Positions 5,730-29,614 of a stretch of DNA of 64,000 bases are shown here, one piece after another; positions within the stretch are counted from its first letter, which is position 1, and each line of letters starts with the position of its first letter. Below the pieces are notes generated by a model. That model saw only the letters and a program-made list of their open reading frames with translations, was not told where the DNA came from and searched no databases. The position numbers and the translations under genes are program-made. This stretch comes from an uncultured bacterium. Lineage in GTDB: Bacteria; DUMJ01. The stretch is taken from assembly GCA_937958695.1 (NCBI GenBank), contig CALGNK010000010.1:4266-68265 (forward strand), read 5' to 3'.

Positions 5730-5749
5730 TTTAGAACACCTCCACCTTT

Positions 5750-6850: not shown

Positions 6851-6864
6851 CCTATAAACCTCCT

Positions 6865-7935: not shown

Positions 7936-7946
7936 AAGCACCTCCC

Positions 7947-8924
7947 TTATTCGTAAAGGAAACAGTTAACTTCTTGATTATTAATCCTCTTTACTGAAGG
8001 AAAATTCTTTTCACATATGTCCATAGCGAACTGGCATCTATTATAGAATGGACAACCACTTACTAGTTCTTTACTAGATAACTTCTGCAATTTTGCTACA
8101 TCTATCACTACCCTATCCTGCCACCTTTTATTTGGATCTGGAACCGGGATAGAGTTTATCAACATCTTAGTATATGGATGTAATGGATTCTTTATTACGT
8201 CTTCAGTAGGCCCTCTTTCTAAGATCCTTCCAGAATATATGATCATTATCCTATCCGCTATGTAATATGCGGTGTTCAGATCGTGCGTTATATAAAGGGT
8301 ACTGATACCTAAATCTTTAAAATTCCTAAGATGGTCTAGAAATATAGCCCTTAAAGATGCATCTAACATAGACACAGGTTCGTCTGCTACTAGTAACTTA
8401 GGTTTTATAAGATATATTCTAGAGAGCATAATTCTTTGTCTCTCTCCACCACTTAACTGATGGGGATATCTGCCTAGAATCTCTCTCGGTCTTAGTCCTA
8501 CTGCTTCAAGACTCTCATAAATAAGTTTACTAGCTTCATCGCCAGAAGCAATATTAAATTTTTGGATAGCCATCCATAGAACTCTGTCTACCCTATAAAA
8601 GGGATTATAGACCTCATACGGATCTTGAAAGATTATCTGTACCTCTCTTATATAATCCTTTTTATTATTCTTAAGCCACTCGGATATGCTTTTCCCTTTA
8701 TAAAGTATTTCTCCAGAGGTTGGTTCTTCTAAACCTAGTATAAGCCTACATATTGTGCTTTTCCCACTTCCACTCTCTCCTACCAATGCCAAAACCTCTG
8801 GTTCAGAGCTTAGAGAAAAGGAGACATCTTTAAGTGCTTGAACTACCGCCTTACCTAAAAAACCAAAACCTACCCTTCTAAATATCTTGGAAACATTTTG
8901 AAATGTCAGTAGATTTCCGTCCAT
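7947..8924 (-). CDS. Oligopeptide/oligosaccharide ABC transporter ATPase (OppF/DppF type)
   Basis: A 325-residue ATPase subunit. Walker A is GESGSGKST (residues 49-57), the signature LSGGE is at 157-161 and Walker B LLVADE at 177-182. The C-terminal extension typical of Opp ATPases carries CPFYNRC..... The start codon abuts the stop of the upstream ATPase gene, and its ribosome site lies within that gene's last codons. It pairs with the OppD-type subunit to power the two permeases of this operon. Confidence 0.95.
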   Translation of the reverse strand: MDGNLLTFQNVSKIFRRVGFGFLGKAVVQALKDVSFSLSSEPEVLALVGESGSGKSTICRLILGLEEPTSGEILYKGKSISEWLKNNKKDYIREVQIIFQDPYEVYNPFYRVDRVLWMAIQKFNIASGDEASKLIYESLEAVGLRPREILGRYPHQLSGGERQRIMLSRIYLIKPKLLVADEPVSMLDASLRAIFLDHLRNFKDLGISTLYITHDLNTAYYIADRIMIIYSGRILERGPTEDVIKNPLHPYTKMLINSIPVPDPNKRWQDRVVIDVAKLQKLSSKELVSGCPFYNRCQFAMDICEKNFPSVKRINNQEVNCFLYE

Positions 8925-9881
8925 CTATTTACCTCCGTAGAGAAAGCAGGCTACAGAACGACCAGGTTGAACCTCTTCCAATACTGGTTCTTCCTCTTCG
9001 CATATCTTCATTCTATATGAACATCTAGGGTGAAATCTACAACCGCTAGGCCATTCTAAAGGGCTTGGAGCAAGACCAGGGATGCCTTTTAAGTTTCGCT
9101 TCTCTAAAGAAGGCACTGCAGATAAAAGTCCCTTGGTGTAAGGATGAAGAGGATCAGAAAATATATCGACAGTAGATCCAACTTCTAAGATCTTCCCCGC
9201 ATACATAATACATATCCTATCACATATCTCAGCATGACAAGCCATATCGTGTGCTACCATAACGACTGTAATGCCATACCTATCCCTTAGGTCTCCAAGT
9301 GTCTGTAGATTTAATTTCTGCATTACAACATCTAGACCAGTTATAGGTTCATCCGCAAATACAATCTTAGGGTTTAGACATAGGCTCATAGCAATGCAGA
9401 CCCTCTGTCTCATACCGCCGCTTAACTCATGGGGATACATATCTAATACGTCAGGTGGCATCCCTACAGAATTAAGAGCAGACAGTGCCAATTCTTTCGC
9501 CTCATGATACGACATATCCGCATGAGATAAGATACCATCAACCATCTGTTCTTCTATCTTTATAACAGGATTTAGAGAATTCATAGAACCTTGCGGAACA
9601 TATGATAATTCCTTCCATCTAAGTTTTCTAAATTCCTCTTCAGGAAGACTTAATAGCTCTATCCCTTTATAGTAGACTTTACCTTCAGGAATATAACATG
9701 GAGGTTTATAGATCTTTAAAACTCCTTCTACCAGAGTAGATTTACCGCAACCAGATTCCCCAGCTATCCCTAAGATCTCGCCTTCAAATACCTTTAAAGA
9801 TACCCCATCAACCGATTTAGCGTCCCCTAGAATTGTTTTGAAGTATACCTTTAAATTTTCTACTTCAAGTATAGTATTCAT
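8925..9881 (-). CDS. Oligopeptide/oligosaccharide ABC transporter ATPase (OppD/DppD type)
   Basis: A 318-residue ATPase subunit. Walker A is GESGCGKST (41-49), the signature LSGGMRQR is at 153-160 and Walker B IVFADE at 173-178. The C-terminal Cys-rich extension (GCRFHPRCSYRM) is typical of the Opp/Dpp class. CAGGAG lies about 8 nt upstream of the ATG at 9881. The gene lies between the OppC-type permease and the OppF-type ATPase, the usual order. Confidence 0.95.
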   Translation of the reverse strand: MNTILEVENLKVYFKTILGDAKSVDGVSLKVFEGEILGIAGESGCGKSTLVEGVLKIYKPPCYIPEGKVYYKGIELLSLPEEEFRKLRWKELSYVPQGSMNSLNPVIKIEEQMVDGILSHADMSYHEAKELALSALNSVGMPPDVLDMYPHELSGGMRQRVCIAMSLCLNPKIVFADEPITGLDVVMQKLNLQTLGDLRDRYGITVVMVAHDMACHAEICDRICIMYAGKILEVGSTVDIFSDPLHPYTKGLLSAVPSLEKRNLKGIPGLAPSPLEWPSGCRFHPRCSYRMKICEEEEPVLEEVQPGRSVACFLYGGK

Positions 9882-9883
9882 CT

Positions 9884-10750
9884 TTATACTCCTGTAACCT
9901 GTCTAAGTCTAGGATTGAATACTTCATCTAGTCCAACATTTATAAGATTTAAAGAGACAAATGTAAGTATGAGAAACGTTATAGGGGAGATAACGATTAA
10001 GTAATGCCCCTGTGCTAGCGTCCCTGAGTATATGGCCCAATTTATAAACTGTCCTAAGGAAGGAATATCTCCTGGTCCTAAGCCAACTAATCTTAATGCT
10101 GTCTCAGCCATAATCGTTCCGGTTACCGCATAAGAAAAACCAACAAATATATAGGGTAAAAAGTTAGGTAGTATCTCTTTGAACATAATTTCTAAATCGC
10201 TAAAACCGGTAACCCTAGCTAAGTCTATATAAGGTCTCTCCCTTAGACTTGCTATCTGCGCCTTTATCTGTCTAGATGACCCAGCCCAACTAAAGAAGGC
10301 TATTATTGCAGAAAGTAAAAGGAGGTCAACTTTTCTAACAAAAAGAACTATTATTGCAAGTATAGGCCAAGAAGGAATAATTAATATAGCATTGGCTATA
10401 GTAGTTATGAAAGCCTCTATTCTACCCCCCTTGTAGCCGGCTATCGATGCCAAAACTACTGCAATAAACGTGGCTAAAGCCCCTGCGGTAAAACCAATAA
10501 GAAGAGAATATTTAAGTCCTGTTAAAAGTAAAGATAGCACATCTCTACCATAAGCCTCTGTTCCAAATGGATGCTCTCGACTTGGTGGAAGAAAAGTATC
10601 GAATAGCCCTATCTCAGTAGAAGACCTTCCATTAAGTCTATAGTAGTTAATAGTGGGTTCTAAAACTGCTAGTACTATTAAAGATAGTAATATAACTACA
10701 CCTACGGTAAGTTTTGGAGAATATTTGAAAATCAATAAGATTCTCTTCAT
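9884..10750 (-). CDS. ABC transporter permease (OppC/DppC type)
   Basis: A 288-residue inner-membrane permease. It has an N-terminal membrane segment at about residues 14-33, then the HPFGTEAYGRDVLS motif typical of OppC proteins, then five further hydrophobic segments. The EAA-type loop includes ARVTGFSDLEIMFKEILPN. A GGAGAGG site precedes the ATG. It works with the adjacent OppB-type permease. Confidence 0.94.
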   Translation of the reverse strand: MKRILLIFKYSPKLTVGVVILLSLIVLAVLEPTINYYRLNGRSSTEIGLFDTFLPPSREHPFGTEAYGRDVLSLLLTGLKYSLLIGFTAGALATFIAVVLASIAGYKGGRIEAFITTIANAILIIPSWPILAIIVLFVRKVDLLLLSAIIAFFSWAGSSRQIKAQIASLRERPYIDLARVTGFSDLEIMFKEILPNFLPYIFVGFSYAVTGTIMAETALRLVGLGPGDIPSLGQFINWAIYSGTLAQGHYLIVISPITFLILTFVSLNLINVGLDEVFNPRLRQVTGV

Positions 10751-10751
10751 C

Positions 10752-11762
10752 TTATCCTCTCCTTATTCTTGGATCAATTAATGGGTATAAGAATTCTATA
10801 ATGAGATTTGCGGTAAGAACACAAAACATAGTAGTTATCGTAATACCCATCAAGACATTATAATCCATCTCTCTTATTGCCATCATAAAGAGTCTTCCAA
10901 TACCAGGATAGTTAAATATCCATTCTATTAGGAAGAATCCGTTTACAATAAAGCCTAAACTTAGAGCAAGGCCAGTAGTTTGAGGTAATAATGTATTCCT
11001 TAATATGTATCTATTTACTAGACGAAAACTTTTTAGTCCTTTAGCCTCTGCTAATTTTATATAGTCTTCTCCTAAGACGCTTATCACTAATGCCCTTTGA
11101 GAGATCATTGTGCCAAAGACATAGACAAAAACTAGAGAAAGAGAGGGTAAGAATGCATGTTTAATAAGACTAATTATAAAGCGCAAACTAAAACTACGCT
11201 GTAACATAGCGGAGTAAGCTCCACCCATAGGGAATAGATTCAACCAGAAGGTAAAGACCATAACTAAAATTATAGCCAATAGATAAGTTGGTATCTGAGA
11301 TATCACCAAACCAGTAGTAAAAATTGTAGAACTTATTTTTGATTCTCTGGTCCACCCTATTATAGTTCCTAATATCACCCCCAGAACCCAAGCTATAATT
11401 ACAGATGTCCCTAAAAGTCCTACTGACCAAGGTAATGACTCCAATATAAGTTCTATAGCAGGCTTGGGGAATGCTACAAATGAAGGACCAAAATCTTGGT
11501 AAAAGAGAAGTCTCTTTATATAGGAGATATATCTCTCAAATAAGCCCTTATCAAGTCCAAAGACTTCTTTATATTTTTGTATTACTATTTCAGATGCAGG
11601 GGTTGATAGACCGTACCTTTGCTCTAACATTTGGATATATCTAGTAACTGGATCTCCTGGCACAAGATTAATAAAGAAGAAGAATGCGCTTAGAGAGATG
11701 ACGAAAATTAATGCGTAGAGAAGAATTCTATTTATAAAATAACTAAAAATCGACTTTTTCAT
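10752..11762 (-). CDS. ABC transporter permease (OppB/DppB type)
   Basis: A 336-residue permease with an N-terminal membrane helix (about 9-31), the OppB-like FINLVPGDPV motif, and further helices. The EAA loop is LAEAKGLKSFRLVNRYILRN. The C-terminal part (EWIFNYPGIGRLFMMAIREMDYNVLMG) is characteristic of the family. It is separated from the upstream SBP2 gene by an 82-bp gap with a strong hairpin, which may lower permease expression relative to the binding protein. Confidence 0.94.
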   Translation of the reverse strand: MKKSIFSYFINRILLYALIFVISLSAFFFFINLVPGDPVTRYIQMLEQRYGLSTPASEIVIQKYKEVFGLDKGLFERYISYIKRLLFYQDFGPSFVAFPKPAIELILESLPWSVGLLGTSVIIAWVLGVILGTIIGWTRESKISSTIFTTGLVISQIPTYLLAIILVMVFTFWLNLFPMGGAYSAMLQRSFSLRFIISLIKHAFLPSLSLVFVYVFGTMISQRALVISVLGEDYIKLAEAKGLKSFRLVNRYILRNTLLPQTTGLALSLGFIVNGFFLIEWIFNYPGIGRLFMMAIREMDYNVLMGITITTMFCVLTANLIIEFLYPLIDPRIRRG

Positions 11763-11796
11763 CTCTTATCCTTCTCCTAACCTGATAGATTTTAAT

Positions 11797-11837
11797 AGAG
11801 CCACCCAGCTTAACCTATAGCTAAACTGGGTGGCTCT
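11797..11837 (-). terminator. Intercistronic hairpin between SBP2 and the permease genes
   Basis: A perfect 12-bp stem AGAGCCACCCAG/CTGGGTGGCTCT closes a 17-nt loop just after the SBP2 stop. On the minus strand the following bases are ATTAAAATC, a poor U-run. It may therefore act as a partial terminator or an mRNA 3'-end stabiliser, giving more binding protein than permease, as known for malE-malF. Confidence 0.65.
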
Positions 11838-11844
11838 TAATAGA

Positions 11845-13566
11845 CTAACTAGCTGGTTTTAGTTTAAAGAGGATAAAGATAAAGCTGGGCCACCATTGAT
11901 AGGGAACATGATACATGTTACCCTCGGTAGGCCAACCTTTCCAATATTTATCAGAAAAGACTTGGACAAACATCTTTTCTACAAGAGGAACAGAAGGTAG
12001 CTCTCTAAACCACAGATCCAATCCTCTTCTAGCATATAGAGAATATTTTGAACTATCTGGATCCATAGTAGCAAGAGTCTCTGTAATCTTATCTAATTCT
12101 TTAGATTTTAACCTGGACTTCATTCTATCCCCAGTGGTCTGATACTCTCCAAGTGGCTTTGCATGTCTACTATGATACGTATCTAGGAAAGGATATATGT
12201 CATTTGGAAAAGATACTGCTACATCTAGGACGTCAAAGGCAATATCATAATTTCCTGTATTGACCAGCTCTCCAAACATTCCGGGATCGACTACCTTTAT
12301 TATGCCTTCTATTCCTATCTTTGCCAATTCATCAGAAAGATGTTTTGCATGGACATAACCTAAGTCTGGAGCAGGTCTTGTGAGTAGAACTAAGCTTAGA
12401 GGTTCACCTTTAGGGGTCCTTCTCTTGCCATCAGGCCCTTTCTTGAATCCTAGTCTATCTAAGATTGCTTCAGCCCTCTTTGGATCATACTTCAGCATTT
12501 CTCCATACTTAGTTTTAATCTCAGGAAATTCCCACTTATCAAGTGCTTTCCAGTCTGGCCAGGGCCACATTGTAGGATAGGACTTCTCAGCCATGGGATA
12601 CGTCTTTGCAAGGAGTTCTCTATTAGCAAGATATTGTATTGCCCATCTGAAGTCTCTCAAACTTGTTGGATATTTAGCGCAGTTGTAAGTGAATCCTTGA
12701 GATACTGCATCCATATAAGGAGCAAGGACCACATTTTCAGTTCTCTTCTGGGCTGCCTTAATCATCTCCCAAGTAAAGATATGGGGTAAAGGTGCATCTA
12801 CTCCTCCTCTTATAAAGTCTGCAAGATCAATATCGGGAGGCGGAGCCATTCTACAGATTACATACTTTGGACCTGGAGAAACTCCAAATACTTTCTTTGC
12901 CCAATAATTCTCATCTCTTTCCCAGATAAACAGGTTTAGGTCTTTGTTATAGCTGTGGAACTTATACGGACCTGTTTCAACCGGAGGCCAGTTAGCATAA
13001 TCTCTTGGATCTTTTCCTTCCCACTTATGTTTTGCTACTACTGTAATCCCTCCCCACATCCTCAACTTATGGTGGAATCTGTATTCAGGATTCTTAAACT
13101 TTATACTGACAGTATAGTCGTCAACTGCAGTTACAGATTTTACATTGGCTACATGCACTGTTCCAAGTAAGTCTGGATTCTTCATAAGGGTTTCTATAGT
13201 AAACACAATATCATGTGCAGTATAAGGAGTTCCATCATTCCATGTTACCCCTTTTCTTACAAACCATCTCAGCTCAAGGCGATCTCTTGAATACTTCCAA
13301 CCGGTTATTCTCCAGTAGATATTCTCTCCTGTAGCATAATTTATATACCAGTCCCACTCATTTGCAACCTGATGCCAGCCAGAACCCCATTGAGTTCCTC
13401 TGGGAACAAAAACATTAGCTTTATCAAACACTGTATACTTGGTATCTGTCTCATAGACATAAGCCTGATTTCTAGGTACAGGATACTCTTGAGCCATTAT
13501 TGGCAGAGATATAGTAAGTAATGAAAGAATCAAGCTAAAGATTAAAAATATTCTCAAAATTTTCAT
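11845..13566 (-). CDS. ABC transporter substrate-binding protein, family 5 (SBP2)
   Basis: A 573-residue SBP_bac_5 protein with a signal peptide at residues 1-25 (cleavage near IMA-QE). The conserved regions RKGVTWNDGTPYTAHDIVF and FRWAIQYLANRE are recognisable. It is the first gene of the leftward operon, directly ahead of the permeases, so it is the likeliest native partner. It is only distantly similar to SBP1 and SBP3. CGGAGGTG lies about 12 nt upstream of the ATG. The ligand is not known. Confidence 0.92.
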   Translation of the reverse strand: MKILRIFLIFSLILSLLTISLPIMAQEYPVPRNQAYVYETDTKYTVFDKANVFVPRGTQWGSGWHQVANEWDWYINYATGENIYWRITGWKYSRDRLELRWFVRKGVTWNDGTPYTAHDIVFTIETLMKNPDLLGTVHVANVKSVTAVDDYTVSIKFKNPEYRFHHKLRMWGGITVVAKHKWEGKDPRDYANWPPVETGPYKFHSYNKDLNLFIWERDENYWAKKVFGVSPGPKYVICRMAPPPDIDLADFIRGGVDAPLPHIFTWEMIKAAQKRTENVVLAPYMDAVSQGFTYNCAKYPTSLRDFRWAIQYLANRELLAKTYPMAEKSYPTMWPWPDWKALDKWEFPEIKTKYGEMLKYDPKRAEAILDRLGFKKGPDGKRRTPKGEPLSLVLLTRPAPDLGYVHAKHLSDELAKIGIEGIIKVVDPGMFGELVNTGNYDIAFDVLDVAVSFPNDIYPFLDTYHSRHAKPLGEYQTTGDRMKSRLKSKELDKITETLATMDPDSSKYSLYARRGLDLWFRELPSVPLVEKMFVQVFSDKYWKGWPTEGNMYHVPYQWWPSFIFILFKLKPAS

Positions 13567-17528: not shown

Positions 17529-19340
17529 ATGTTACAGATGACTGATAAGGAATACTCAAGGTTTATGAAGGCTCTTGATAGGTGGAATGAGAGGTATGAT
17601 CCTGAGGTTTGTATGATCAAAGAACCATTTCATTCTCCTGGATATCATACTACTCTTAAGGGTGGTTGGGTACATCCGACAAGGAGCTCTTTGACTTATG
17701 CGGTAGCACTTTTAGATAGCGGTATAGAGGAGTATAGACTGAGGGCTATGGATATCCTTAGAAAAGTAATTTCTTTACAGGACCAAAATCCTGACAGCCC
17801 AACTTATGGTATATGGTCTTGGTTTTATGAGGAGCCTTTAGAGAAGATGTCTCCTCCTGATTGGAATTGGGCAAATTTTTGCGGAAAGGAGCTCCTACAG
17901 GTAGCTCTAGATCATTTTGATAGAATCCCTGAAGAGCTAAGAGAAAAAGTTAAAGAGGCTATTTATCATGCATGTAGGTCTATCATAAGACGTAATGTAG
18001 GTCCATCTTATACTAACATTGCAATTATGGGAGCCTATGTAACTCTTCTTGCGGGAGAGTTATTTGAATGGAAGGATGTCTTTAGCTATGGGAAAGACCT
18101 TCTTGAAAGAATCCATAAATATACAAGATATCATGGTGCTTTTACTGAGTATAATAGTCCAACATATACTATGGTTGCTATAGAGGATATTTCAAGGATA
18201 CTTTCTCATATAAAGGACAGGGAATGTTTAGAGATTGCGGAATATCTAAATGACGTTGCCTGGAAGTGTGTAGCCTTACATTTCCATCCTCCTACTGGTC
18301 AATGGGCTGGACCGCATAGTAGGTGTTATAACAATATCCAAGGGATTAACCTTTGGTCTAGGATACAATTAGCAACTAGCGGAAAGGTAAAATTCCTAGA
18401 GGAGGATGAATTGTATACTGATATAAATTGGCATAGGATAAAGATAGGATGTCCTGATAATTATATAGATTACTTTATTACCTTAGATAAACCAAGAGGG
18501 ATTAGAGAGGTCTTTTATAAAGGAGAGGAATCATTAAGTCCAGAGCTTAGGTCAATAGTAGGTGTTCCGTTTTATCCTGCACTTACAGCAACAACATATC
18601 TTACCCATTTTTACTGTTTAGGGACATTTTCTAAATCGGACTTTTGGAACCAGAGGAGAGGTTTTATAGGATACCTGGGAGATAAGAATAATCCTATCTA
18701 TTTCCAACTAAGATTTTTACATGATGGCTATGATTATTCTTCTGCTCTATTACATACTGTGCAATTAGAAAATAGAGTCTTGGGTGCAATAAATTTTGCC
18801 ACAGACTATGGTGATGCACATATAAGTCTTGATAGAGTAAAGGATGCTACTATAGTTGCAAAGGATTTAAGACTTAGACTAGAGTTTGGGGGATATATAG
18901 CTACTATTAGATTGCCAAACTCATCTAAGCTGGATAATATCCTAATTACCAATATTGATAGTGTGAATCTTGGAATAATGTTTCCAAAAATCTCTTTTGG
19001 AGATTATAAGATAAGTTTAGAAGTTGGTGAGAATGATAAAAATAAGTGGATAGACATTATTTTTTATAGCGGAAAAGAGAAGGCTATATGCTTTAAAGAC
19101 CTAGAGAAGGCTTTTACTGTTTTTGCTTTTTATATTACTGAAGATAATACCGATCTATTAGATAAATTTTCAAATATAAGGATTGATGAACAAGAGGAAA
19201 AGATTTTTTCAAAATGGACTGTAGATGGTAATATTCTAGAGTTGGAGGCTGATCTAAAACCTGGTTCTATAGCGGAGCTTCTTAAGGGTAGTAAGGGTTT
19301 CATAAATGGAATACCCATAGAGAAGGAGGGATTACTTTGA
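17529..19340 (+). CDS. Alpha/alpha-barrel carbohydrate-active protein (polysaccharide lyase/heparinase-like)
   Basis: A 603-residue protein with no signal peptide. Residues 1-300 are rich in repeating helices with conserved aromatic and Asn residues (GPSYTNIAIMGAYV, YHGAFTEYNSPTY, RCYNNIQGINLW), typical of an (alpha/alpha) toroid. Residues about 330-600 are beta-rich. That layout resembles heparinase II/III-type lyases and some glycoside hydrolases. With the KDG-type kinase upstream, an intracellular lyase giving unsaturated uronates is attractive, but the family is not certain. AAGGAGG lies 7 nt upstream of the ATG. Confidence 0.6.
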   Translation: MLQMTDKEYSRFMKALDRWNERYDPEVCMIKEPFHSPGYHTTLKGGWVHPTRSSLTYAVALLDSGIEEYRLRAMDILRKVISLQDQNPDSPTYGIWSWFYEEPLEKMSPPDWNWANFCGKELLQVALDHFDRIPEELREKVKEAIYHACRSIIRRNVGPSYTNIAIMGAYVTLLAGELFEWKDVFSYGKDLLERIHKYTRYHGAFTEYNSPTYTMVAIEDISRILSHIKDRECLEIAEYLNDVAWKCVALHFHPPTGQWAGPHSRCYNNIQGINLWSRIQLATSGKVKFLEEDELYTDINWHRIKIGCPDNYIDYFITLDKPRGIREVFYKGEESLSPELRSIVGVPFYPALTATTYLTHFYCLGTFSKSDFWNQRRGFIGYLGDKNNPIYFQLRFLHDGYDYSSALLHTVQLENRVLGAINFATDYGDAHISLDRVKDATIVAKDLRLRLEFGGYIATIRLPNSSKLDNILITNIDSVNLGIMFPKISFGDYKISLEVGENDKNKWIDIIFYSGKEKAICFKDLEKAFTVFAFYITEDNTDLLDKFSNIRIDEQEEKIFSKWTVDGNILELEADLKPGSIAELLKGSKGFINGIPIEKEGLL

Positions 19341-20131: not shown

Positions 20132-20160
20132 TTGTCTATATACTTATTCTGGGCTATACT
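20132..20160 (+). promoter_or_regulatory. Sigma-70-type promoter of the Yip1/DUF5696 operon
   Basis: TTGTCT (20132-20137), a 17-bp spacer and TATACT (20155-20160) lie 36 bp upstream of the proposed first start codon. It is the only promoter I find for the long overlapping operon that follows. Confidence 0.6.
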
Positions 20161-20196
20161 TATTTTAAGAAATAATATTGAAAGGGGTTGGAGAGA

Positions 20197-20883
20197 TTGA
20201 ACGATAAGAAATTCTATAGGGTTATATCTAGGATGGATGGTTTCCCATATGGGGGAAGATATTTTGATGATATAGAGATAGTATGGTTTTATTCTGAGAG
20301 AAGAGAGTTTCCTCTAGTGAAATATGAAGAGGTGATACAAGACTACAACGAGAAGAAAAAGAGAAATTCTACTGAGAAATTGGAGAGTTATATAGACGAG
20401 TTCTTTGCCCTTCATGAGGCAACAAGATTAAAGAAATTTTTAGATCAGCACTTTAAGGATATCTTTACAGAGATTAGAGAAGTCGATTCTATCCCTACCG
20501 ATCCTGATATTACACCATTAAAGGAGATTCCAGTTGGAGGAGGGGTTGATTTTTATCTTTTATGGAAGGAGGACAAATACCCCCTCTCTTTCAGGGTAGA
20601 GGGAATATTTGATATAAGGCCAGTATGGAGAAGAACCACTCAAAAAAGATGGAAGATAGAGCTTGCTCTTAATGAATTAGACCTATACGAGATTCCTTCT
20701 CTTACCGTAGCAGACAGGGGTATATGTATTATTGATGCTGGAAAGCTTGGTGGGGATTTTTTGGTGGTTTCTCGTGATGAGGAGTTTGAGAGAGTCTTAA
20801 GGGAGAAAGGGTTTGAGCTAGAAGAGATTCCTGGGAAGCTCTACAAGCTTTCCTTTAGGGGTAATGATAAGAAAGAAGCTTAA
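20197..20883 (+). CDS. Hypothetical protein, first gene of the Yip1/DUF5696 operon
   Basis: About 228 residues, no signal peptide and no membrane segment. I do not recognise a family. The N-terminus (KFYRVISRMDGFPYGGRYFDD) is followed by a charged helical stretch (about 45-90) and a C-terminal alpha/beta region. The TTG at 20197 is preferred over the TTG at 20188, which directly abuts the ribosome site; both are possible. Its 3' end overlaps the next gene by 20 bp, so it belongs to this operon, perhaps as a cytoplasmic partner. Confidence 0.7.
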   Translation: MNDKKFYRVISRMDGFPYGGRYFDDIEIVWFYSERREFPLVKYEEVIQDYNEKKKRNSTEKLESYIDEFFALHEATRLKKFLDQHFKDIFTEIREVDSIPTDPDITPLKEIPVGGGVDFYLLWKEDKYPLSFRVEGIFDIRPVWRRTTQKRWKIELALNELDLYEIPSLTVADRGICIIDAGKLGGDFLVVSRDEEFERVLREKGFELEEIPGKLYKLSFRGNDKKEA

Positions 20884-22690
20884 TATACTTCTACTTACAC
20901 TGTTATTAATCCTACTACCTGAGTTTGCTAAGGCGGATTATTTTCTTACTGGAAATTTTTTCTCTTCCGAGACTGATATAAAGAAACTTCCTCTAGAGGT
21001 ATCCTCTATAGTCTTTGGGATTAATGATAGGCTATATCTTTTAGATAGGAGGGAGGGGAAGATACAGATATATTCGCCAGAAGGAGTTCTTGAAAGAGAA
21101 ATTTACTCTAAAGCTGAGGTTATCACTTTAGACCCATGGGGCTATATCTATGCGATCTCTAAGGGAAGATTTGTAGACATACTTGATCCTTTAGGAAATC
21201 TAGTCAAGAGTATTACTCTTGAATCTCGAGATCCTATTTATGATTTTATCTCTTATTTTGGGTTTGTCTCTGTAGATGAGAGGGGTTACATATATATTGT
21301 TAATACTAGTTCTGGTAAAGTTTCTATATACTCTCCTTCTGGAGTTTATGTTGGAGACCTTATAAAGAGTGGATATGGATCTTCAGACCTTACTATGGTG
21401 AATGCAGTAGCTATAGACTCTAGAGGGAACATCTATGTAGCTGGAAGCCTGCCTAGATCAGCTGCTAGTAGGTTTGAGCCAAACTATATTGTAGCAAAGA
21501 GAATGAACTACCAGGGGTATACAAATATGACCTTTGGACCAATTATAAATGCATTTATAGGTGGAATAGTTGTGGACCAACTTGGCAATCTATATATTTT
21601 GGATACGTCTTCTTCTTATATCTATAAGTTCGATAAGAGAGGAGCTCTTGTTACTAGATTTTTTGTCGGTAGAGGCGCTACTTGTATTGCTATACGTAGC
21701 GATGGCTATATAGCCATAGGATACGGTGGAGAAGTAAAACTTTTTCATCCTTCTAGGTTGATGAAGATTATAGATAAGGCTAATGAAGCATTGCTAGATG
21801 GTAATTATGACCTTTCTGTAAAGTATTGGAACGAGGCATTAAGATTGAATAATTATATGAAATTTATCCATTCAGGTCTTGGAGAGACCTATTTATATAT
21901 GAAAGATTATAGAAATGCTCTTAGGGAGTTTAAATTGGCAGAGGATAAGTTTAGATATTCTGGAACTGTTATCCTTTATAGGAGAGAACTCTTCTATAGA
22001 TATATAATCCTTTGGGGAATATTATTTCTAGTCATAGCAAATATCGTTATTCTTTGGGGTAAAAGGTTCTCATTTATATTTAATAATATAATAGGTCGTA
22101 TGATTTATGCCCCTGTAAAGACCCTAGTAGAGGTTAGAGAGAAGCCTATATACTGGGGCTTTATCCTACTAATTGCTCTTGCCCTTATAGATGCACTGAA
22201 CAGAAGATATACCAATTATATCTTTCAGCCTAATTTAGAGGCTATAGATTATCTGTTCTTTCGTAGATTACTTATGTTTTCAGGTCTGTGGTTTGTAAGT
22301 GGGACTGTTTTTTATAGCGTTGGGGAGATATTTGATGGAATGGGAACTTGGAAGCAGTGTATGCTTACTGCGATCTTCTGTATAGTGCCGTATATACTAT
22401 TCTCATTTCCACTTTCTCTTATTAGTAACCTTCTTACATTTCAAGAGAAGATTTACTACGACTATGCTAGACAGGGTTTAATACTTTGGTGCGGAATCCT
22501 CTTTTTCGTAAATGTCTATACCACACAACAGTTATCTTCGACTAAGAATCTTTTAATATTTTTATTAACTGGGGTGGGATTGGCTTTTGCTATTTCTATA
22601 ATTTTATTCCTACAAGGTGTTAATAGAGAATTATGGTCCTTTATAAAAGATATCTATCTTGAGGCATGGTATAGGTTGGTAGGATACTGA
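20864..22690 (+). CDS. Beta-propeller (NHL-type) / TPR / Yip1 membrane protein
   Basis: A 608-residue protein with a signal peptide (1-24). Residues about 30-300 hold NHL-like propeller blades with recurring patterns (DERGYIYIVNT, DSRGNIYVAGS, DQLGNLYILDT). Residues about 300-355 look like two TPR units (ALLDGNYDLSVKYWNEALRL, YMKDYRNALREFKLAED). A membrane helix at about 372-393 and a Yip1-type multi-helix domain (about 410-600) follow. The outer propeller may bind glycan or protein while Yip1 helices sit in the membrane. Such fusions occur beside DUF5696 genes in other bacteria. Function is unknown. Confidence 0.82.
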   Translation: MIRKKLNILLLTLLLILLPEFAKADYFLTGNFFSSETDIKKLPLEVSSIVFGINDRLYLLDRREGKIQIYSPEGVLEREIYSKAEVITLDPWGYIYAISKGRFVDILDPLGNLVKSITLESRDPIYDFISYFGFVSVDERGYIYIVNTSSGKVSIYSPSGVYVGDLIKSGYGSSDLTMVNAVAIDSRGNIYVAGSLPRSAASRFEPNYIVAKRMNYQGYTNMTFGPIINAFIGGIVVDQLGNLYILDTSSSYIYKFDKRGALVTRFFVGRGATCIAIRSDGYIAIGYGGEVKLFHPSRLMKIIDKANEALLDGNYDLSVKYWNEALRLNNYMKFIHSGLGETYLYMKDYRNALREFKLAEDKFRYSGTVILYRRELFYRYIILWGILFLVIANIVILWGKRFSFIFNNIIGRMIYAPVKTLVEVREKPIYWGFILLIALALIDALNRRYTNYIFQPNLEAIDYLFFRRLLMFSGLWFVSGTVFYSVGEIFDGMGTWKQCMLTAIFCIVPYILFSFPLSLISNLLTFQEKIYYDYARQGLILWCGILFFVNVYTTQQLSSTKNLLIFLLTGVGLAFAISIILFLQGVNRELWSFIKDIYLEAWYRLVGY

Positions 22691-24690
22691 TGCGAAAGAG
22701 TATCTTATTTGTGTTTATTCTTCTATTAATAGCCTCTAAAGTTTATGCCAAGCTAGATATTACCTATGAAGTGAGTAAAGACCTTCTTATTGTTAGGAAT
22801 GATAGTTATACTATGACCAGTTCTCCTCTAGACTGGAGGTCTGTAAATGATTATTGGGATTCTAAGATAAGGTCAATGTTTATTGTTGAATATTGGGATA
22901 AGGAATTGGGTAATTCTAGACTTTTATTCTCTTACGATGCAAAAAGGACTTCTGTTTCTAATAAAGAATCAATAGATATAAATTACAAGTTTTCATCTAT
23001 AAACCTTAGTTTTACCGCTAAGTTATATAACAAAGGAGAATATATTGAGGTTACGATACCTTATAAGACTTTTAAGGAGGACCTTTCTTTTCCAGTAATT
23101 AGTGTTACCTTTTTACCATACCTAAACTCTGGTAGGGTTGGAGAAAGTGGATACCTAGTTATACCTGATGGTTGTGGGACTATCGTCAAATTTACAAAAT
23201 TCTTTGGGGTAACCACACTTGAAAAACAGGTCTACGGTGATTTAACCCCATCTAGTTATGATATAAACCAGATACCTATCACTCTACCTGTATTTGGTTG
23301 TATAAAGGGTAATTTAGGTTTTGCTGGTATAATAACAGAAGGGGATGCCTTTAGCAGTTTAGTAATGGATATGGCACCTGGTAATGGATATTATTCTATA
23401 GGAGCTAAGTTTTATTTTAGAAGAATATTTGAAGATATATACCGTAAGAAGAGGATAACTCCTAGAAGAGATAATAGGGATAGGACTATTCGCTTCTATG
23501 TACTCAAAGATGAATCTGCCAACTATGTTGGAGTTGGTAAGAGCTACAGGGAATTCCTCTTAAAAGAAAGAGGTGCCAAGACTCTAAAAGAAAAAATACC
23601 TACCTATAGTTATCTAGATCCAAATATTATCGATATAGGGATATTTATGGGTGTTAAGAAAGGCTTTCAACTTTTTGATCCGGTGATTAGTTTAACATCC
23701 TTTAGAGAGATAAGTTTGATACTTGATAGATTAAGGGACCTTGGTATAAGGGCAAACATCATACTCGCTGGTTGGGAGAAATCTGGATTTGAGGGTGAGA
23801 ATCCTACCACCTTTCCTCCGTTTGATGGTTCTAGAGGCCTTAAGTTGATATTAGAAAGGGCCAAGAATTTGGGACACTTTATAAGTCTTTCGGTTAATTT
23901 TTTTGATATCTATCAGAATTCTAGAGATTTTTATAGAAGGTTAACATTGAAGAGTCCTGTAAAATTACCATTAGAGCAGAATACGTATAGGAGAGGATAT
24001 ATTATATGTCCACAAGTAGCATTGACTAAATTTCAGAGGTTCTACAGTGAGGCAAAAAAGATCGGAGTAGCTGGGATTGAACTTAGACGTTTAGGTAGAG
24101 GTCTTATAGAATGTTTTGATGATGACCATCCCGTAGATAGATTTGATTGTGCAGGAATCTATACAAAAATGATAAGTTCAGCTGGTATAGTTGAGGGAGG
24201 CTGTGGTTATGGTGTATATTCGGTAAATAATTTTGTCTCTGTACCATCTAAGAGCTCAGGTTTTTTTGGTGGAGATTCTGTCCCTTTGTGGCAGATAGTG
24301 TTACATGGTATAGTAAGATACTCCTTTGAACCAATAAATCTTAGGAGGGACTTTGATTACGAATTCCTCAAGACTCTAGAGTACGGGGCATTACCAACCG
24401 CTATACTGACTTATAGATCTCCGATATTGATAAGGGATACCTTTTACAAAGACCTCTTTAGCTCTAGATTCTTGGATTGGCAGAACGATCTAAAGCGTGA
24501 GTATGAACTTCTTAATAGAATACTTGGATATCTCCAGTATCATTTTATTACCGACCACAGAGAATTATCTAGGTATGTATATCAAACGACTTATAGTGAT
24601 GGCACTAGGGTTATAGTGAATTATTCAAACAAAGAATTTAATGGTATAAAGCCGCTTGGGTATAGAATAATTAAAGGAGATAATCAATAG
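22690..24690 (+). CDS. DUF5696 glycosidase-like exported protein
   Basis: A 666-residue protein with an N-terminal signal peptide (about 1-20). An N-terminal beta-sandwich-like region is followed by a TIM-barrel-like core with IRANIILAGWEKSGF, YIICPQVALTKFQRF and GIELRRLGRGL, matching my recollection of DUF5696, a glycosidase-like family often linked to Yip1 and sugar ABC permease genes. The catalytic residues are not certain. The start overlaps the previous stop (TGATG). It probably acts outside the cell membrane on a glycan. Confidence 0.75.
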   Translation: MRKSILFVFILLLIASKVYAKLDITYEVSKDLLIVRNDSYTMTSSPLDWRSVNDYWDSKIRSMFIVEYWDKELGNSRLLFSYDAKRTSVSNKESIDINYKFSSINLSFTAKLYNKGEYIEVTIPYKTFKEDLSFPVISVTFLPYLNSGRVGESGYLVIPDGCGTIVKFTKFFGVTTLEKQVYGDLTPSSYDINQIPITLPVFGCIKGNLGFAGIITEGDAFSSLVMDMAPGNGYYSIGAKFYFRRIFEDIYRKKRITPRRDNRDRTIRFYVLKDESANYVGVGKSYREFLLKERGAKTLKEKIPTYSYLDPNIIDIGIFMGVKKGFQLFDPVISLTSFREISLILDRLRDLGIRANIILAGWEKSGFEGENPTTFPPFDGSRGLKLILERAKNLGHFISLSVNFFDIYQNSRDFYRRLTLKSPVKLPLEQNTYRRGYIICPQVALTKFQRFYSEAKKIGVAGIELRRLGRGLIECFDDDHPVDRFDCAGIYTKMISSAGIVEGGCGYGVYSVNNFVSVPSKSSGFFGGDSVPLWQIVLHGIVRYSFEPINLRRDFDYEFLKTLEYGALPTAILTYRSPILIRDTFYKDLFSSRFLDWQNDLKREYELLNRILGYLQYHFITDHRELSRYVYQTTYSDGTRVIVNYSNKEFNGIKPLGYRIIKGDNQ

Positions 24691-25391
24691 TGAGGTGGCT
24701 TATTTTACTTGTCTCTCCATCTGAAGCTTGGGAATATGTTAAGAATACCAACTGGCTCATTATTCCCATTTTGGTGGGAATCTTATCAGCACTCTGTAGT
24801 TTTTACATTACTATAGATCCCAATGTTATGTATCTTAAGGCTGAGACGATTGTAAGATTATCTCGTAATAGCTTTTTCTCACTACCAGAAGGGGAAGGGA
24901 TTATAAAACTATCTATCACTCTAGGGTTTATTATGCTACCATTATGGTATATCTTTAGAACTATAGTTTCTAGTATGATTGCAAAAAGGATACTTAAGTA
25001 TATAGAGTATAAGAAACTTTTAATTATCTTTTCTTTATCTCTTTTACCAATTATTCCTTTAAGATTCATTATTCTGTACTTTATTAAGGTTAAAGGCTTA
25101 AAAGACCTAGTTGACCTTAGAGACCTTTATATAACACTGAGCCCTGTTCTATTCTATGCATTAAATAGAGATATACTTAAGAACGATATGCTCTATATGT
25201 TTCTTAGAGAGATAAGCTTGCAGAATATCTGGACTATGGTTATATTTGCAGGTCTTTCTTCTAAAGAAGGTATAGATACTAGAAGAGGTATATTGGCTTT
25301 TCTTATCGTTCTAGCAGTTATGAGAATTATAGAGATACTTTGGGAGAATTATAGCTATAATATAATCTGGTTTCTTCTTGTTGGAGGTTGA
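24690..25391 (+). CDS. Yip1 domain membrane protein
   Basis: A 233-residue protein with about five hydrophobic segments and the Yip1-type opening LVSPSEAWEYVKNTNWLI, where a membrane-proximal helix precedes the first span. It starts with GTG at 24690, overlapping the previous stop (TAGTG), with AAAGGAGA upstream. It is a stand-alone version of the domain fused to the propeller protein at 20864, so both may act in one membrane complex. The molecular role of bacterial Yip1 proteins is unknown. Confidence 0.8.
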   Translation: MRWLILLVSPSEAWEYVKNTNWLIIPILVGILSALCSFYITIDPNVMYLKAETIVRLSRNSFFSLPEGEGIIKLSITLGFIMLPLWYIFRTIVSSMIAKRILKYIEYKKLLIIFSLSLLPIIPLRFIILYFIKVKGLKDLVDLRDLYITLSPVLFYALNRDILKNDMLYMFLREISLQNIWTMVIFAGLSSKEGIDTRRGILAFLIVLAVMRIIEILWENYSYNIIWFLLVGG

Positions 25392-25393
25392 GT

Positions 25394-26758
25394 ATGAGAA
25401 AGAAGTTAGGTATTACTGCGCTTATTGTAAGTATTTTATGGGTTATGTATCTTGGTTTTATATATAATAGAACTTATTTCGAACATTACCCTAAGGTTAC
25501 TGTTACCGTTGCCGAGAGAAAACCTTTTATTCAGGATATATCTACAATTGGTTATATAGAGCCTGCTGTTAGGTCTACTATAAGGAGTACTGTATCAGGA
25601 AAGGTCTTAGAAATAATGGTTAATGTTGGAGACTATGTAAGGAAAGGGGATCCTCTATTTCGTATAGAATCCCCAGATTTAGAACTTCAGATAGAGCAGG
25701 CTAAGTTAAATATAGAAAAGCTCAAGATAGAAGAAGAAAAGCTAAAAAGTGAAGTTTATGATATATCTCAGCATGAGGTAAATCTAAAAAGAGAGGAGGA
25801 AAATCTTAATAGAGCTCAAAAGGAGTTAGAAAAGGCAGAGTTTCTCTTTAAGAATGGGATTATTACCCTCTCAGAATACAGTAACTATAAAAATCTATAT
25901 ACCCAGGCAAAGCTTACCTATGAACTGGCAGAGAAGAATTATAGAATTAGTAAAAGACAGTATGAAATACAAGAAAAACTTAAGACCGATAACCTTTTGG
26001 TTTTGCACAAGAGTATAAAAAATGCCAAGGCACAATTAAAAAATTTGGAAGATCAGAGGTTGGTTAAAGCTAGTATAGAAGGTAGGATAGTTTCTATCTT
26101 TGTAAAGAAGGGAGAATATGTTACAGTTGGAACCCCTATTGTCTATATGGCTGACGAGAGAAAATTAATGGTATCCTCTGTAGTAGATCCAAAATATATA
26201 GATAGGGTCAAAATTGGTCAGGAGATAAGATTTAAGGTTGACCCACTCTCTACCAAGGAGTATAAGGGAGAAGTAGATTCTATATCAGAGGGAACAGAGG
26301 AATTGATGGGTAAGACTGGTATAAAGGTTACTGGAAGAATAAAGGATAAGATACCGGGTATCAAGGTTAATATGCCTGTGTATTCAAGGATTTTAGTACG
26401 GAGTAAGGAACTTAGTGTAGTTGTTCCTGTAGCAAGTATATATCAGGAGACCCCTAAAGGTGAGGAAAATCCCCTGTATTATTTGAGTCCACCCAGCCCA
26501 AAAGATGTTGAATATTACGTTTTTGTGCTTGAAAGAACACCTATAACTACTGATGACAGAGAACTTAGAAGATTGATAAGAGATAACGTTCAAGTTGTGA
26601 GAAAGAGAAAAGTTGAGGTAGGCGGGGTTAGTGAAGGCGAAGCGGAGATTATTAGCGGTTTGAATCAATTTGAAAAAGTAGTTACATATAGTAGCAGATC
26701 GCTTAACGATTATGATAGGGTTATAGTTATAGAGAGAGAAAAATGGGCAAAGGATTAG
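25394..26758 (+). CDS. HlyD/MacA-type periplasmic adaptor
   Basis: A 454-residue membrane fusion protein. It has an N-terminal membrane helix (about 4-25), a split lipoyl domain (VSGKVLEIMVNVGDYVRKGDPLF and EGRIVSIFVKKGEYVTVGTP), a long coiled-coil hairpin between them (about 95-215), then beta-barrel and membrane-proximal domains. The ATG at 25394 is preferred to the TTG at 25388 because GGAGG is then correctly spaced. It is followed by a MacB-like permease, the classical MacAB order. No outer-membrane channel gene is nearby. Confidence 0.9.
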   Translation: MRKKLGITALIVSILWVMYLGFIYNRTYFEHYPKVTVTVAERKPFIQDISTIGYIEPAVRSTIRSTVSGKVLEIMVNVGDYVRKGDPLFRIESPDLELQIEQAKLNIEKLKIEEEKLKSEVYDISQHEVNLKREEENLNRAQKELEKAEFLFKNGIITLSEYSNYKNLYTQAKLTYELAEKNYRISKRQYEIQEKLKTDNLLVLHKSIKNAKAQLKNLEDQRLVKASIEGRIVSIFVKKGEYVTVGTPIVYMADERKLMVSSVVDPKYIDRVKIGQEIRFKVDPLSTKEYKGEVDSISEGTEELMGKTGIKVTGRIKDKIPGIKVNMPVYSRILVRSKELSVVVPVASIYQETPKGEENPLYYLSPPSPKDVEYYVFVLERTPITTDDRELRRLIRDNVQVVRKRKVEVGGVSEGEAEIISGLNQFEKVVTYSSRSLNDYDRVIVIEREKWAKD

Positions 26759-27801
26759 AGGGAGTAAAGATAGGGATAGCTGTTATGCTTGTTTCTCTTG
26801 TATTAGGTTCACTAGAGTCTATTAGATTTGGCTTAGGGTATAATATCTTTACCTATGGGATGGATATATTTGCAGTTTCTCCATATCTAACAGAGGAGAT
26901 GAAATTAGAACCTCTTACCTGGGAAGATGCTAAGGCTATAGCAGACATACCTGGTGTGAAGTCAGTAGATAGTGTAAAAAAGGGTACCGCTAAGGTTTTA
27001 TTAAGAGCCGAAGAGACAAATATGAATATCACCCTAATTACTCCAAATTTTGTAGACATTATTGGGAGAAGGCTAATAGATGGAAGAAATTTCACAAGTA
27101 CTGATTTTTCTAGGTCTTATAAGGTTGTTCTTCTTCCAGAGAACACTAAGGACATACTCTTTAGTAAAGATGTAAATCCTCTTGGGAGCGAGATATATAT
27201 AAACAGGGAGAGATTTATTGTAGTTGGTATCCTGGGTCAGGCATTTATGGAGAAGATAATAAATAGGTTTAAGATACTGAGGGATTATCTGCCTATGATA
27301 TCACAATTGGCAGAACTTATATATCCAAAAAGAGAGCTTTTAATACCTTTATACTACGATCCTTATGATAGATTAGATGCTTTAATAATAACTGTTTATC
27401 CAAAGTATTCTTGGGGAACCTTTAAGGCAGTCTTAAAGGATGAGATAGTAAGGACATTAAGATTTAGACATATAGGGGAAAGTGATTATGAGGTATTCAA
27501 TCTACACGAAAGGCTTTTAGCATTTAAGGTTTATCTATTGATCTTTCTCTCAGTAATGTTTGTTATATCTGTAATACTTATAGCATCTGCTTTTCTAAGA
27601 ACTAGAGGTATTCTTTTCAGAGATAAGATACTTCTATTTTTAATTTGGATAACTGTAGGAGAACTTTCAGGATTATTGTTATCTAGAGTTGTTACAATTA
27701 GGTTAGATATACCTCCATCACCGGTTTGGTGTTTCTTAGTAGGATTTTTCATACCATTCTTTATTTGGTGTAGATATGAGATTAAGAAGATTAAACTATA
27801 G
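26743..27801 (+). CDS. MacB/FtsX-type permease without ATPase domain
   Basis: A 352-residue protein with one N-terminal membrane helix (about 8-28), a large external domain (about 30-250) including TWEDAKAIADIPGVKSV, and three C-terminal helices. That is the layout of the MacB periplasmic core plus FtsX domains. Full MacB proteins carry an N-terminal ATPase; it is absent here, and no ATPase gene is in the operon. The gene overlaps the adaptor by 16 bp. It may recruit an ATPase encoded elsewhere or act as a mechanical linker. Confidence 0.82.
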   Translation: MGKGLEGVKIGIAVMLVSLVLGSLESIRFGLGYNIFTYGMDIFAVSPYLTEEMKLEPLTWEDAKAIADIPGVKSVDSVKKGTAKVLLRAEETNMNITLITPNFVDIIGRRLIDGRNFTSTDFSRSYKVVLLPENTKDILFSKDVNPLGSEIYINRERFIVVGILGQAFMEKIINRFKILRDYLPMISQLAELIYPKRELLIPLYYDPYDRLDALIITVYPKYSWGTFKAVLKDEIVRTLRFRHIGESDYEVFNLHERLLAFKVYLLIFLSVMFVISVILIASAFLRTRGILFRDKILLFLIWITVGELSGLLLSRVVTIRLDIPPSPVWCFLVGFFIPFFIWCRYEIKKIKL

Positions 27802-28660
27802 ACAAAAGAATATACTGATGAGTTATATAGCCATATCTCCATGGCTTATAGGGTTTGCTGTCTTTTTTGTATTCCCTCTATTATTCTCCATCGTCTTAAG
27901 TTTTCTAAAATGGAGCTTTAATGGAAGCACATTTGTATGGCTTGATAACTATAAGGAAGCACTTTTTAACGATAGGGATTTCTGGTATAGCCTAGGTGTA
28001 ACATTAGGTTATGGTGTTATAAGTATTCCATTTACAATACTATTCTCGCTTATACTTGCCCTTCTCATAAATCAAAAGGTAAAAGGGATAGGTTTTTTTA
28101 GAATGGTGTATTTCTTACCAGTAGTAGCTGCTTCAGATGTTGTCGTAGCCAAGATAGGTCCTGAAATATTTAGTAAAATGGTCAGTGTAAATGTAACATT
28201 GGAGACATTTGGCATTCAGGTCAATCCAGATGTCCAAAACTTTATAGGGCTCTTTTCTACCCTAATTACTCTAGGACTATGGCGTGTAGGTATTCAGATG
28301 CTTATATTTTTAGCTGGTCTTCAGAGTATAGACCCTCAGATATATGAGGCGGTAGAATTAGATGGTGCCAGCTGGTGGAAGAGCCTCTGGGCAATAACTA
28401 TTCCTCTTTTAGGTCCCTTTATAGTTATTAATGTCGTCTTTACTGTAATTGAGTCTTTTACTAATGTCTTTACAATAGCAAGGGTACTAGCAGGGGGAAG
28501 AAGTGTAACTCCTTTCTTTATGGACTATGTATATAGACTCAGTTTTGAACAGTATAGGCTTGGATATGGATCTGCGGTAAGCTGGATATTTCTTATTATT
28601 GTTATCTCATTAGTGCTATTAGCTTACTATTACTCTCAGAAGTATCTAGTTGAGAGGTAA
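27776..28660 (+). CDS. Carbohydrate ABC transporter permease (MalF/UgpA type)
   Basis: A 294-residue permease with six predicted helices. The EAA loop is YEAVELDGASWWKSLWAITI near residue 190. The ATG at 27776 overlaps the MacB-like gene by 26 bp; a later ATG at 27818 is possible. It pairs with the next gene as a MalF/MalG-type heterodimer. Neither a binding protein nor an ATPase (MalK/UgpC) is encoded in this operon, which is unusual. Confidence 0.92.
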   Translation: MRLRRLNYRQKNILMSYIAISPWLIGFAVFFVFPLLFSIVLSFLKWSFNGSTFVWLDNYKEALFNDRDFWYSLGVTLGYGVISIPFTILFSLILALLINQKVKGIGFFRMVYFLPVVAASDVVVAKIGPEIFSKMVSVNVTLETFGIQVNPDVQNFIGLFSTLITLGLWRVGIQMLIFLAGLQSIDPQIYEAVELDGASWWKSLWAITIPLLGPFIVINVVFTVIESFTNVFTIARVLAGGRSVTPFFMDYVYRLSFEQYRLGYGSAVSWIFLIIVISLVLLAYYYSQKYLVER

Positions 28661-28666
28661 GAGAAG

Positions 28667-29569
28667 ATGAAGTACAAGACTAACATCCTCTATAAGATTA
28701 AAAGGATAATACCAAAGCTTATAATCTACTTTTTACTTATTGATGGGGCTTTTATATTCCTCTATCCCATTGGGAGGACGGTAGTCATATCCCTTATGAC
28801 TATAGAGGACTATATGGATCCTTCGGTGAATTGGATCCCAAATAGGTTAAACTTTAGAAATTATATAGATGTATTAAAACCTATGGAATTCTTTACCGCC
28901 TTTTCTAATACTGTAAAACTGACAGTGTTCTGCATCTTAGGACAGGTCTTATCCTCTGCTCTTGTTGGATATGGCCTTGCTAGAGGTAAGATTCCTGGAA
29001 AAGAGGTTATTATGATGATAATACTTGCTACCCTTGTTGTTCCTCCTCAGACTCTCCTCATACCTTACTACATCCTATATCACAGATTAAACCTCTTAGA
29101 TTCACTTAATGTATTTATTATTCCTTCTTTCTTTGGCTTTGGAATATATGCACCTCTATGCATATTTGTCTTCAGACAAGTATTTAATACACTTCCGACT
29201 GAACTAGAAGATGCAGCCATAATAGATGGTGCAGATTTCTTTAGGTGTTTCTGGTATGTCTATCTTCCACTATCTAGGTCTGCCTTTGTAACGGTAGGAC
29301 TCTTCACCTTTGTCTGGTATTGGAACGAGTATGCCAGGAGCATCATCTTCTTTAATAATATAAGGACTATTCCTATAGCTCTATCTCTACTATTCTCTGC
29401 CGATCCTGCATATGTAGGTACAGGCTTTGGTGGTATGAATATTAGTGTTGTGACCTATCCTATGATGATGTCTGCGGTTATGCTGACTATACTTCCCTGT
29501 CTAATTTTATACCTCTTTACACAGAAATACTATTTAACTGCTATAGAACAAGTTGGGATAAAGGGATAA
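28667..29569 (+). CDS. Carbohydrate ABC transporter permease (MalG/UgpE type)
   Basis: A 300-residue permease with six predicted helices. The EAA loop DAAIIDGADFFRCFWYVYLP is clear near residue 190. It starts 6 bp after the MalF-type gene and closes the operon. Its presence beside DUF5696 and Yip1 genes suggests uptake of a glycan fragment released outside the cell. Confidence 0.93.
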   Translation: MKYKTNILYKIKRIIPKLIIYFLLIDGAFIFLYPIGRTVVISLMTIEDYMDPSVNWIPNRLNFRNYIDVLKPMEFFTAFSNTVKLTVFCILGQVLSSALVGYGLARGKIPGKEVIMMIILATLVVPPQTLLIPYYILYHRLNLLDSLNVFIIPSFFGFGIYAPLCIFVFRQVFNTLPTELEDAAIIDGADFFRCFWYVYLPLSRSAFVTVGLFTFVWYWNEYARSIIFFNNIRTIPIALSLLFSADPAYVGTGFGGMNISVVTYPMMMSAVMLTILPCLILYLFTQKYYLTAIEQVGIKG

Positions 29570-29584
29570 AACTATGCTTATCCT

Positions 29585-29614
29585 ATTGACATTTAGGTCA
29601 ATTTGACCCATAAT
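29585..29614 (+). promoter_or_regulatory. Promoter with embedded palindromic operator upstream of speD
   Basis: Consensus TTGACA (29586-29591), a 17-bp spacer and CATAAT (29609-29614) form the promoter. The spacer contains a perfect palindrome GGTCAATTTGACC (29596-29608). A second inverted repeat, ATTGAC-N6-GTCAAT (29585-29602), shares its right arm with the first. Three half-sites across a promoter strongly suggest a repressor site. The regulator is not known. Confidence 0.75.

Follow-up and report, generated by a model that had tools for sequence, protein, structure and literature searches.

The eight genes A-H on the forward strand of the window (the whole analysed stretch of 64,000 nucleotides from an uncultured bacterium) combine two gene sets: B, C, G, and H, which, judged by sequence comparison, form the core of a cassette, as yet uncharacterised, of Bacillota and of a Dictyoglomus-like phylum, and D-E-F, which, with D as a probable Yip1 protein, corresponds in components and order to YknW-YknX-YknZ minus YknY, a correspondence missed by an earlier interpretation made from the letters alone (the sequence-only reading). 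B-C-G-H alone is widespread, whereas D-E-F inserted in the cassette is specific to this lineage. D-E-F resembles a toxin-export pump in reduced form, without its ATP motor and without the parts gripping the motor, which suggests that the pump is now a passive part of an envelope machine. F would then provide an example from nature of a MacB-type protein that is uncoupled from ATP yet under selection, and would show that the periplasmic MacA/MacB scaffold is useful without mechanotransmission. Furthermore, two settings in which Yip1 occurs with an ABC transporter, YknWXYZ and the widespread sugar-importer cassette, are hereby connected, such that an explanation of Yip1 in either of them could explain it in both.

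Organization and conservation of the operon

The sequence-only reading gave seven genes in its title and eight in its text; the latter number is correct, as 20188-29569 (+) contains eight co-directional ORFs, which overlap at every joint except G/H, where a gap of 6 bases is situated (Table 1). Its family names for B, C, E, F, and G/H agree with the family searches, whereas D, which it called a free Yip1 protein, matches that family only weakly. The promoter-like site before speH marks where the A-H unit probably ends; that speH possesses such a site of its own is consistent with a transcription unit stopping at H.

Table 1. Genes and promoter-like sites of the A-H operon (positions in the window)
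Feature	Position	Strand	Description
Promoter-like site before A	20132..20160	+	9/12; such sites in the region do not exceed the chance number
A	20188..20883	+	soluble protein of 231 aa, no TM segment
B	20864..22690	+	signal peptide, beta-propeller, TPR, C-terminal Yip1 membrane domain
C	22690..24690	+	exported DUF5696 protein (353.6 bits); Asp of the barrel replaced by Arg
D	24690..25391	+	small membrane protein, probably Yip1/YknW-like; 4 predicted TM segments
E	25388..26758	+	membrane-fusion adaptor of the MacA/YknX type; N-terminal TM anchor, alpha-hairpin
F	26743..27801	+	MacB/YknZ-like permease core; ATPase and coupling helices lacking
G	27776..28660	+	MalF-type permease; EAA-like loop EAVELDGAS
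H	28667..29569	+	MalG-type permease; EAA-like loop EDAAIIDGAD
Promoter-like site after H, before speH	29586..29614	+	11/12

The source assembly comprises 2.09 Mb in 57 contigs, and the comparison within the lineage covers two further species of the same genus. The order A-H is identical in all three genomes, and in both sister species an IolE-like gene precedes A and speH-speB-nusB follows H. The sister species differ upstream of A, in the second of them in the stretch upstream of the IolE-like gene, which marks A-H as the conserved unit. All eight genes are under purifying selection (dN/dS 0.03-0.16 among the three species), which, together with the identical gene order, argues against both chance and decay as the origin of the arrangement. 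In one sister genome (L013:5612-7745), two reverse-strand genes encoding a BamB-like PQQ propeller protein and a DUF6036 nucleotidyltransferase-like protein are situated directly upstream of A and downstream of the IolE-like gene.

Concerning A, searches of the Pfam/NCBIfam type yielded no family match; the orthologues within the lineage, to which the gene is confined, are 87-89% identical. Structure prediction from the three close sequences reached a pLDDT of 35 for A and of 36 for C.

Between an SBP_bac_5 gene and the IolE-like gene of the window, a 603-aa protein without match in Pfam or NCBIfam is encoded (17529-19340); it is conserved in one sister species, whereas the other has PfkB beside IolE instead. 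The Opp-type ABC operon at 3750-13566, with two family-5 binding proteins and two Gfo/Idh/MocA oxidoreductases, may be directed at sugars rather than peptides.

The cassette core and its sugar permeases

A domain-wide set of 386 genomes contains 17 with DUF5696 above the cut-off; the corresponding counts are 38 of 398 for the phylum to which genome G053 belongs and 5 of 7 for the small Dictyoglomus-like phylum, presumably the Dictyoglomota. A comparison of the neighbourhoods of DUF5696 homologues, as proposed with the sequence-only reading, revealed the B-C-G-H cassette at 31 loci outside the lineage, each inspected in detail. The propeller protein is present in 30 of them, MalF2 in all 31, and MalG2 in 30, and Yip1 was detected in 28, whereas D-E-F as a set is found at none of the 31, nor are HlyD, MacB, or homologues of A and D. 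The claim that related neighbourhoods exist in other bacteria thus holds for B-C-G-H, whereas the whole A-H set is lineage-specific. In the other cassettes, the DUF5696 gene and MalF2 adjoin, whereas in the window D-E-F parts C from G; the propeller(-Yip1) protein, DUF5696, MalF2, and MalG2 are all found there in cassette order.

The cassettes on plasmids of Paenibacillus cellulosilyticus (NZ_CP054609) and Butyrivibrio fibrisolvens (NZ_CP146964) are annotated piecewise and possess homologues of B, C, G, and H in the same order. Despite this similarity, the window operon differs from such dual-MalFG cassettes in that it lacks the large binding protein (about 960-1000 aa) and the first MalFG pair, which are common but not universal (26 of 31 cassettes), and in that it possesses D-E-F between DUF5696 and MalF as well as the extra gene A. 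In canonical cassettes (L153:15801-18698, L071:15958-18921), an unusually large protein of about 970-990 aa is encoded, with a C-terminal SBP_bac_1 domain and around 580 N-terminal residues mostly without assigned family. The literature search found neither a paper on the propeller/Yip1-DUF5696-MalFG cassette nor one that mentions DUF5696, and none on Yip1 with the sugar permeases of this cassette.

B matches Pfam Yip1 with 33.3 bits (E 5.6e-8) and SBBP with 26.4 bits, and the SBBP/NHL propeller and TPR families were matched as well. The sequence-only reading described C as glycosidase-like. Three relatives of the DUF5696 type that lie outside the dual-permease cassette, one of which also matches GH101 and DUF6259, share the motif YYLDAM and, further on, a Glu; the Asp of the motif and this Glu are putative catalytic residues. 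In the sequence alignment, however, the Asp column is Arg throughout in the three lineage copies of C, and the Glu column reads E, D, and D; both columns also vary across the 31 cassette members. Since C lacks the Asp of its free-standing relatives, it is probably a pseudo-glycosidase, a binder rather than an active enzyme. A second DUF5696 match in the genome (contig 11) turned out to be a DUF6259 protein instead.

The family search assigned G and H to the UgpA/UgpE/MalF/MalG-type permeases. In trees that also contained 14-15 paralogues encoded in the same genome as the window, G (MalF tree, SH-aLRT 100) and H (MalG tree, SH-aLRT 99) group with the second pair of the cassettes, and on this phylogenetic placement they are orthologues of the second MalF and MalG. 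Their EAA-like loops were read by eye, as the regular expression for EAA loops missed both, and their dN/dS (0.03-0.045) is the lowest in the operon.

The earlier view of this pair as a transporter missing its motor does not fit the genome. About a dozen sugar SBP-MalFG sets have no local ATPase (searches with PF00005, PF01547, and PF00528 combined with neighbourhoods), and the genome encodes an orphan UgpC/MalK that has both the OB_MalK and the TOBE domain (476 bits, cut-off 432); the absence of an ATPase beside G/H is ordinary here, and no unusual motor loss need be assumed. The proposed search for a distant ATPase of the MalK/UgpC or LolD type thus recovered both types. A second UgpC-like ATPase of 385 aa (contig 13, L083:8711-9868) exhibits a UgpC match over the NBD (306 bits), an N-terminal extension, and no OB_MalK/TOBE match; no permease occurs in the stretch inspected. 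No binding protein is encoded within A-H, and SBP_bac_1 has fifteen matches above the cut-off in the genome.

This organization is similar to that of the sugar importers sharing the orphan ATPase MsmX (PMC7658222): as in these MsmX/UgpC-powered type I importers, G/H are permeases of the MalFG type whose ATPase would be shared and encoded apart from them by an orphan gene, whereas the window operon lacks a local binding protein and possesses propeller/Yip1 and DUF5696 proteins. On the P. cellulosilyticus plasmid NZ_CP054609, ugpC is situated directly upstream of the cassette. GH5 or GH26 genes are found near 8 of the 31 cassettes and binding proteins beside many; mannan/glucan enzymes were seen only next to the cassettes of other genomes (the same 8/31). 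The sequence-only reading is borne out in that Yip1, DUF5696, and MalFG are linked in a conserved set of envelope genes, with sugar as its likely theme.

The D-E-F module and the motor interface of F

In Bacillus, YknWXYZ consists of the Yip1-family protein YknW, the adaptor YknX, the ATPase YknY, and the MacB-like permease YknZ (PMC4887032, PMC4338810, PMC5985334). YknW is reported to affect how the complex of adaptor and permease assembles (PMC4887032, PMC4338810), and the role of Yip1 in this system has been called enigmatic (PMC5985334). D-E-F, with D as the probable Yip1 component, has the order and component types of YknW-YknX-YknZ, but differs from this system, which protects against the SDP toxin, in that YknY and the coupling helix are lacking, in its position inside a sugar-importer operon, and in the weak Yip1 match of D; no YknY-type ATPase is present in the operon.

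The window copy of D has no Pfam match, whereas its orthologue in another species of the lineage matches Yip1 with E 1.2e-4 (22.5 bits, below the cut-off of 28.6). A profile comparison of D with the Yip1 proteins of the cassettes (hhalign) and a search of D against plasmids yielded no match, such that D is, on this weak similarity, a probable Yip1/YknW-like protein. E belongs to the HlyD/RND_mfp family (RND_mfp 125 bits, above the cut-off) and matches MacA structures and related adaptors. In an alignment of the hairpin, its tip resembles that of RND-type adaptors. Two tandem TolC-like genes occur in the genome (contig 14, 96352-98620), without an adaptor adjoining them in the stretch inspected, and make an outer-membrane partner for E possible.

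F matches MacB_PCD with 59.8 bits, the extracellular domain of YknZ (5f9q, E 9e-7), and MacB structures, and exhibits four predicted TM segments; an ATPase domain is absent. The sequence-only description as a MacB core lacking its ATPase is therefore right, but F also lacks the coupling elements, such that it could not simply borrow an ATPase. In MacB, three elements contact the NBD: the major coupling helix in the stretch from TM2 to TM3, a minor C-terminal coupling helix, and an amphipathic helix ahead of TM1 (PMC5985334). On contig 14, the genome encodes another MacB, together with a MacA and a LolD-type ATPase that belong to it; this protein reads TERIREIGIRKAIGAK at the major coupling helix, whereas F reads FLRTRGILFRDK at this place and, compared with the contig 14 protein, has neither the N- nor the C-terminal segment. 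F of all three species lacks the major coupling helix as well as the remaining NBD contacts, whereas all of these are intact in the contig 14 MacB. On this basis, F apparently is no longer able to engage an ATPase.

The same division is seen in the columns invariant across the three species. In the normal MacB, these amount to 27/27 in the coupling region, 18/18 in the C-terminal segment, and 16/20 in the N-terminal cytoplasmic segment, whereas in F they amount to 3/13 in the former coupling loop and 4/10 at the C terminus. The periplasmic part of F is conserved in 199 of 231 columns, and its TM regions in about 60-67%, so that selection holds the outer part and not the cytoplasmic face. The module is similar to MacAB-TolC, a type VII ABC transporter, in that E resembles MacA and F possesses the periplasmic core of MacB and four predicted TM segments. 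It differs in that F has neither an NBD nor any of the three elements contacting it, so that MacB mechanotransmission as described cannot work. Among 386 genomes, no orthologue of F was found outside the lineage; the best matches elsewhere cover only about residues 7-166.

Functional interpretation

We tentatively prefer, at somewhat less than even odds, to regard the operon as an oligosaccharide importer driven by MalK, to which a passive, motorless scaffold derived from YknWXZ is joined. Outside the inner membrane, an oligosaccharide would be recognised or held by B and C; powered by the orphan UgpC/MalK, G and H would pass it through the membrane, and E with F and D would form a passive trans-envelope scaffold or conduit, possibly up to a TolC-like channel, which this lineage would have built into the importer cassette. 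The physical assembly, the substrate class, and the passive role of the scaffold are what we infer from the gene set, and the eight proteins may form one physical complex. Counted against this reading, the adjacency of D-E-F and B-C-G-H could be explained by co-transcription alone, the Yip1 match of D stays below the cut-off, the operon has no gene for a binding protein, and mannan/glucan enzymes occur beside the cassettes of other genomes only.

Co-transcription is all that is assumed if B, C, G, and H with the shared MalK and one of the many binding proteins of the genome are an ordinary importer of an oligosaccharide, and D-E-F is a passenger with a separate job. The fifteen SBP_bac_1 matches, the shared ATPase, and the occurrence of the core without D-E-F at 31 of 31 other loci fit this; however, D-E-F is inserted between otherwise adjacent genes, with overlapping frames at the joints, and is kept in three species, and we consider a mere passenger rather doubtful.

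It is unlikely that the operon is a sensor, in which the propeller, DUF5696, and periplasmic F domains perceive a glycan or stress as one complex, and G/H transduce a signal instead of transporting. The probable loss of catalysis in C, the lack of a binding protein in the operon, and the strong conservation of the periplasmic part of F would suit such a function, whereas G/H keep EAA-like loops and the strongest constraint, as expected of a driven transporter, and the family search recognised no kinase, sigma factor, or regulator in the operon.

A bolder reading, in which F, a MacB-fold protein whose ATPase interface is lost for good, is moved or positioned by the motor of another ABC transporter, such that the MalFG-MalK importer drives the MacA/MacB-like trans-envelope conduit via the Yip1 proteins as an inward-running sugar uptake machine spanning the outer membrane, appears quite improbable. 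Slightly less credit still is given to D-E-F as a working exporter of the YknWXYZ/MacAB type served by a LolD-type ATPase from elsewhere in the genome: family resemblance, gene order, and the presence of LolD-type ATPases speak for it, but the three NBD-contact elements of MacB are all missing or degraded in F, and the LolD-type ATPases examined adjoin partners of their own (MacA/MacB on contig 14, an FtsX-like gene beside FtsE on contig 24); that of contig 26 adjoins small permease-like ORFs. The notion of D-E-F as a decaying transporter remnant, to which the missing ATPase and coupling helix might point, is hardly credible and was dropped in view of the dN/dS of 0.10-0.16 for D, E, and F (dS about 0.7-1.0) and their full-length frames in three species.
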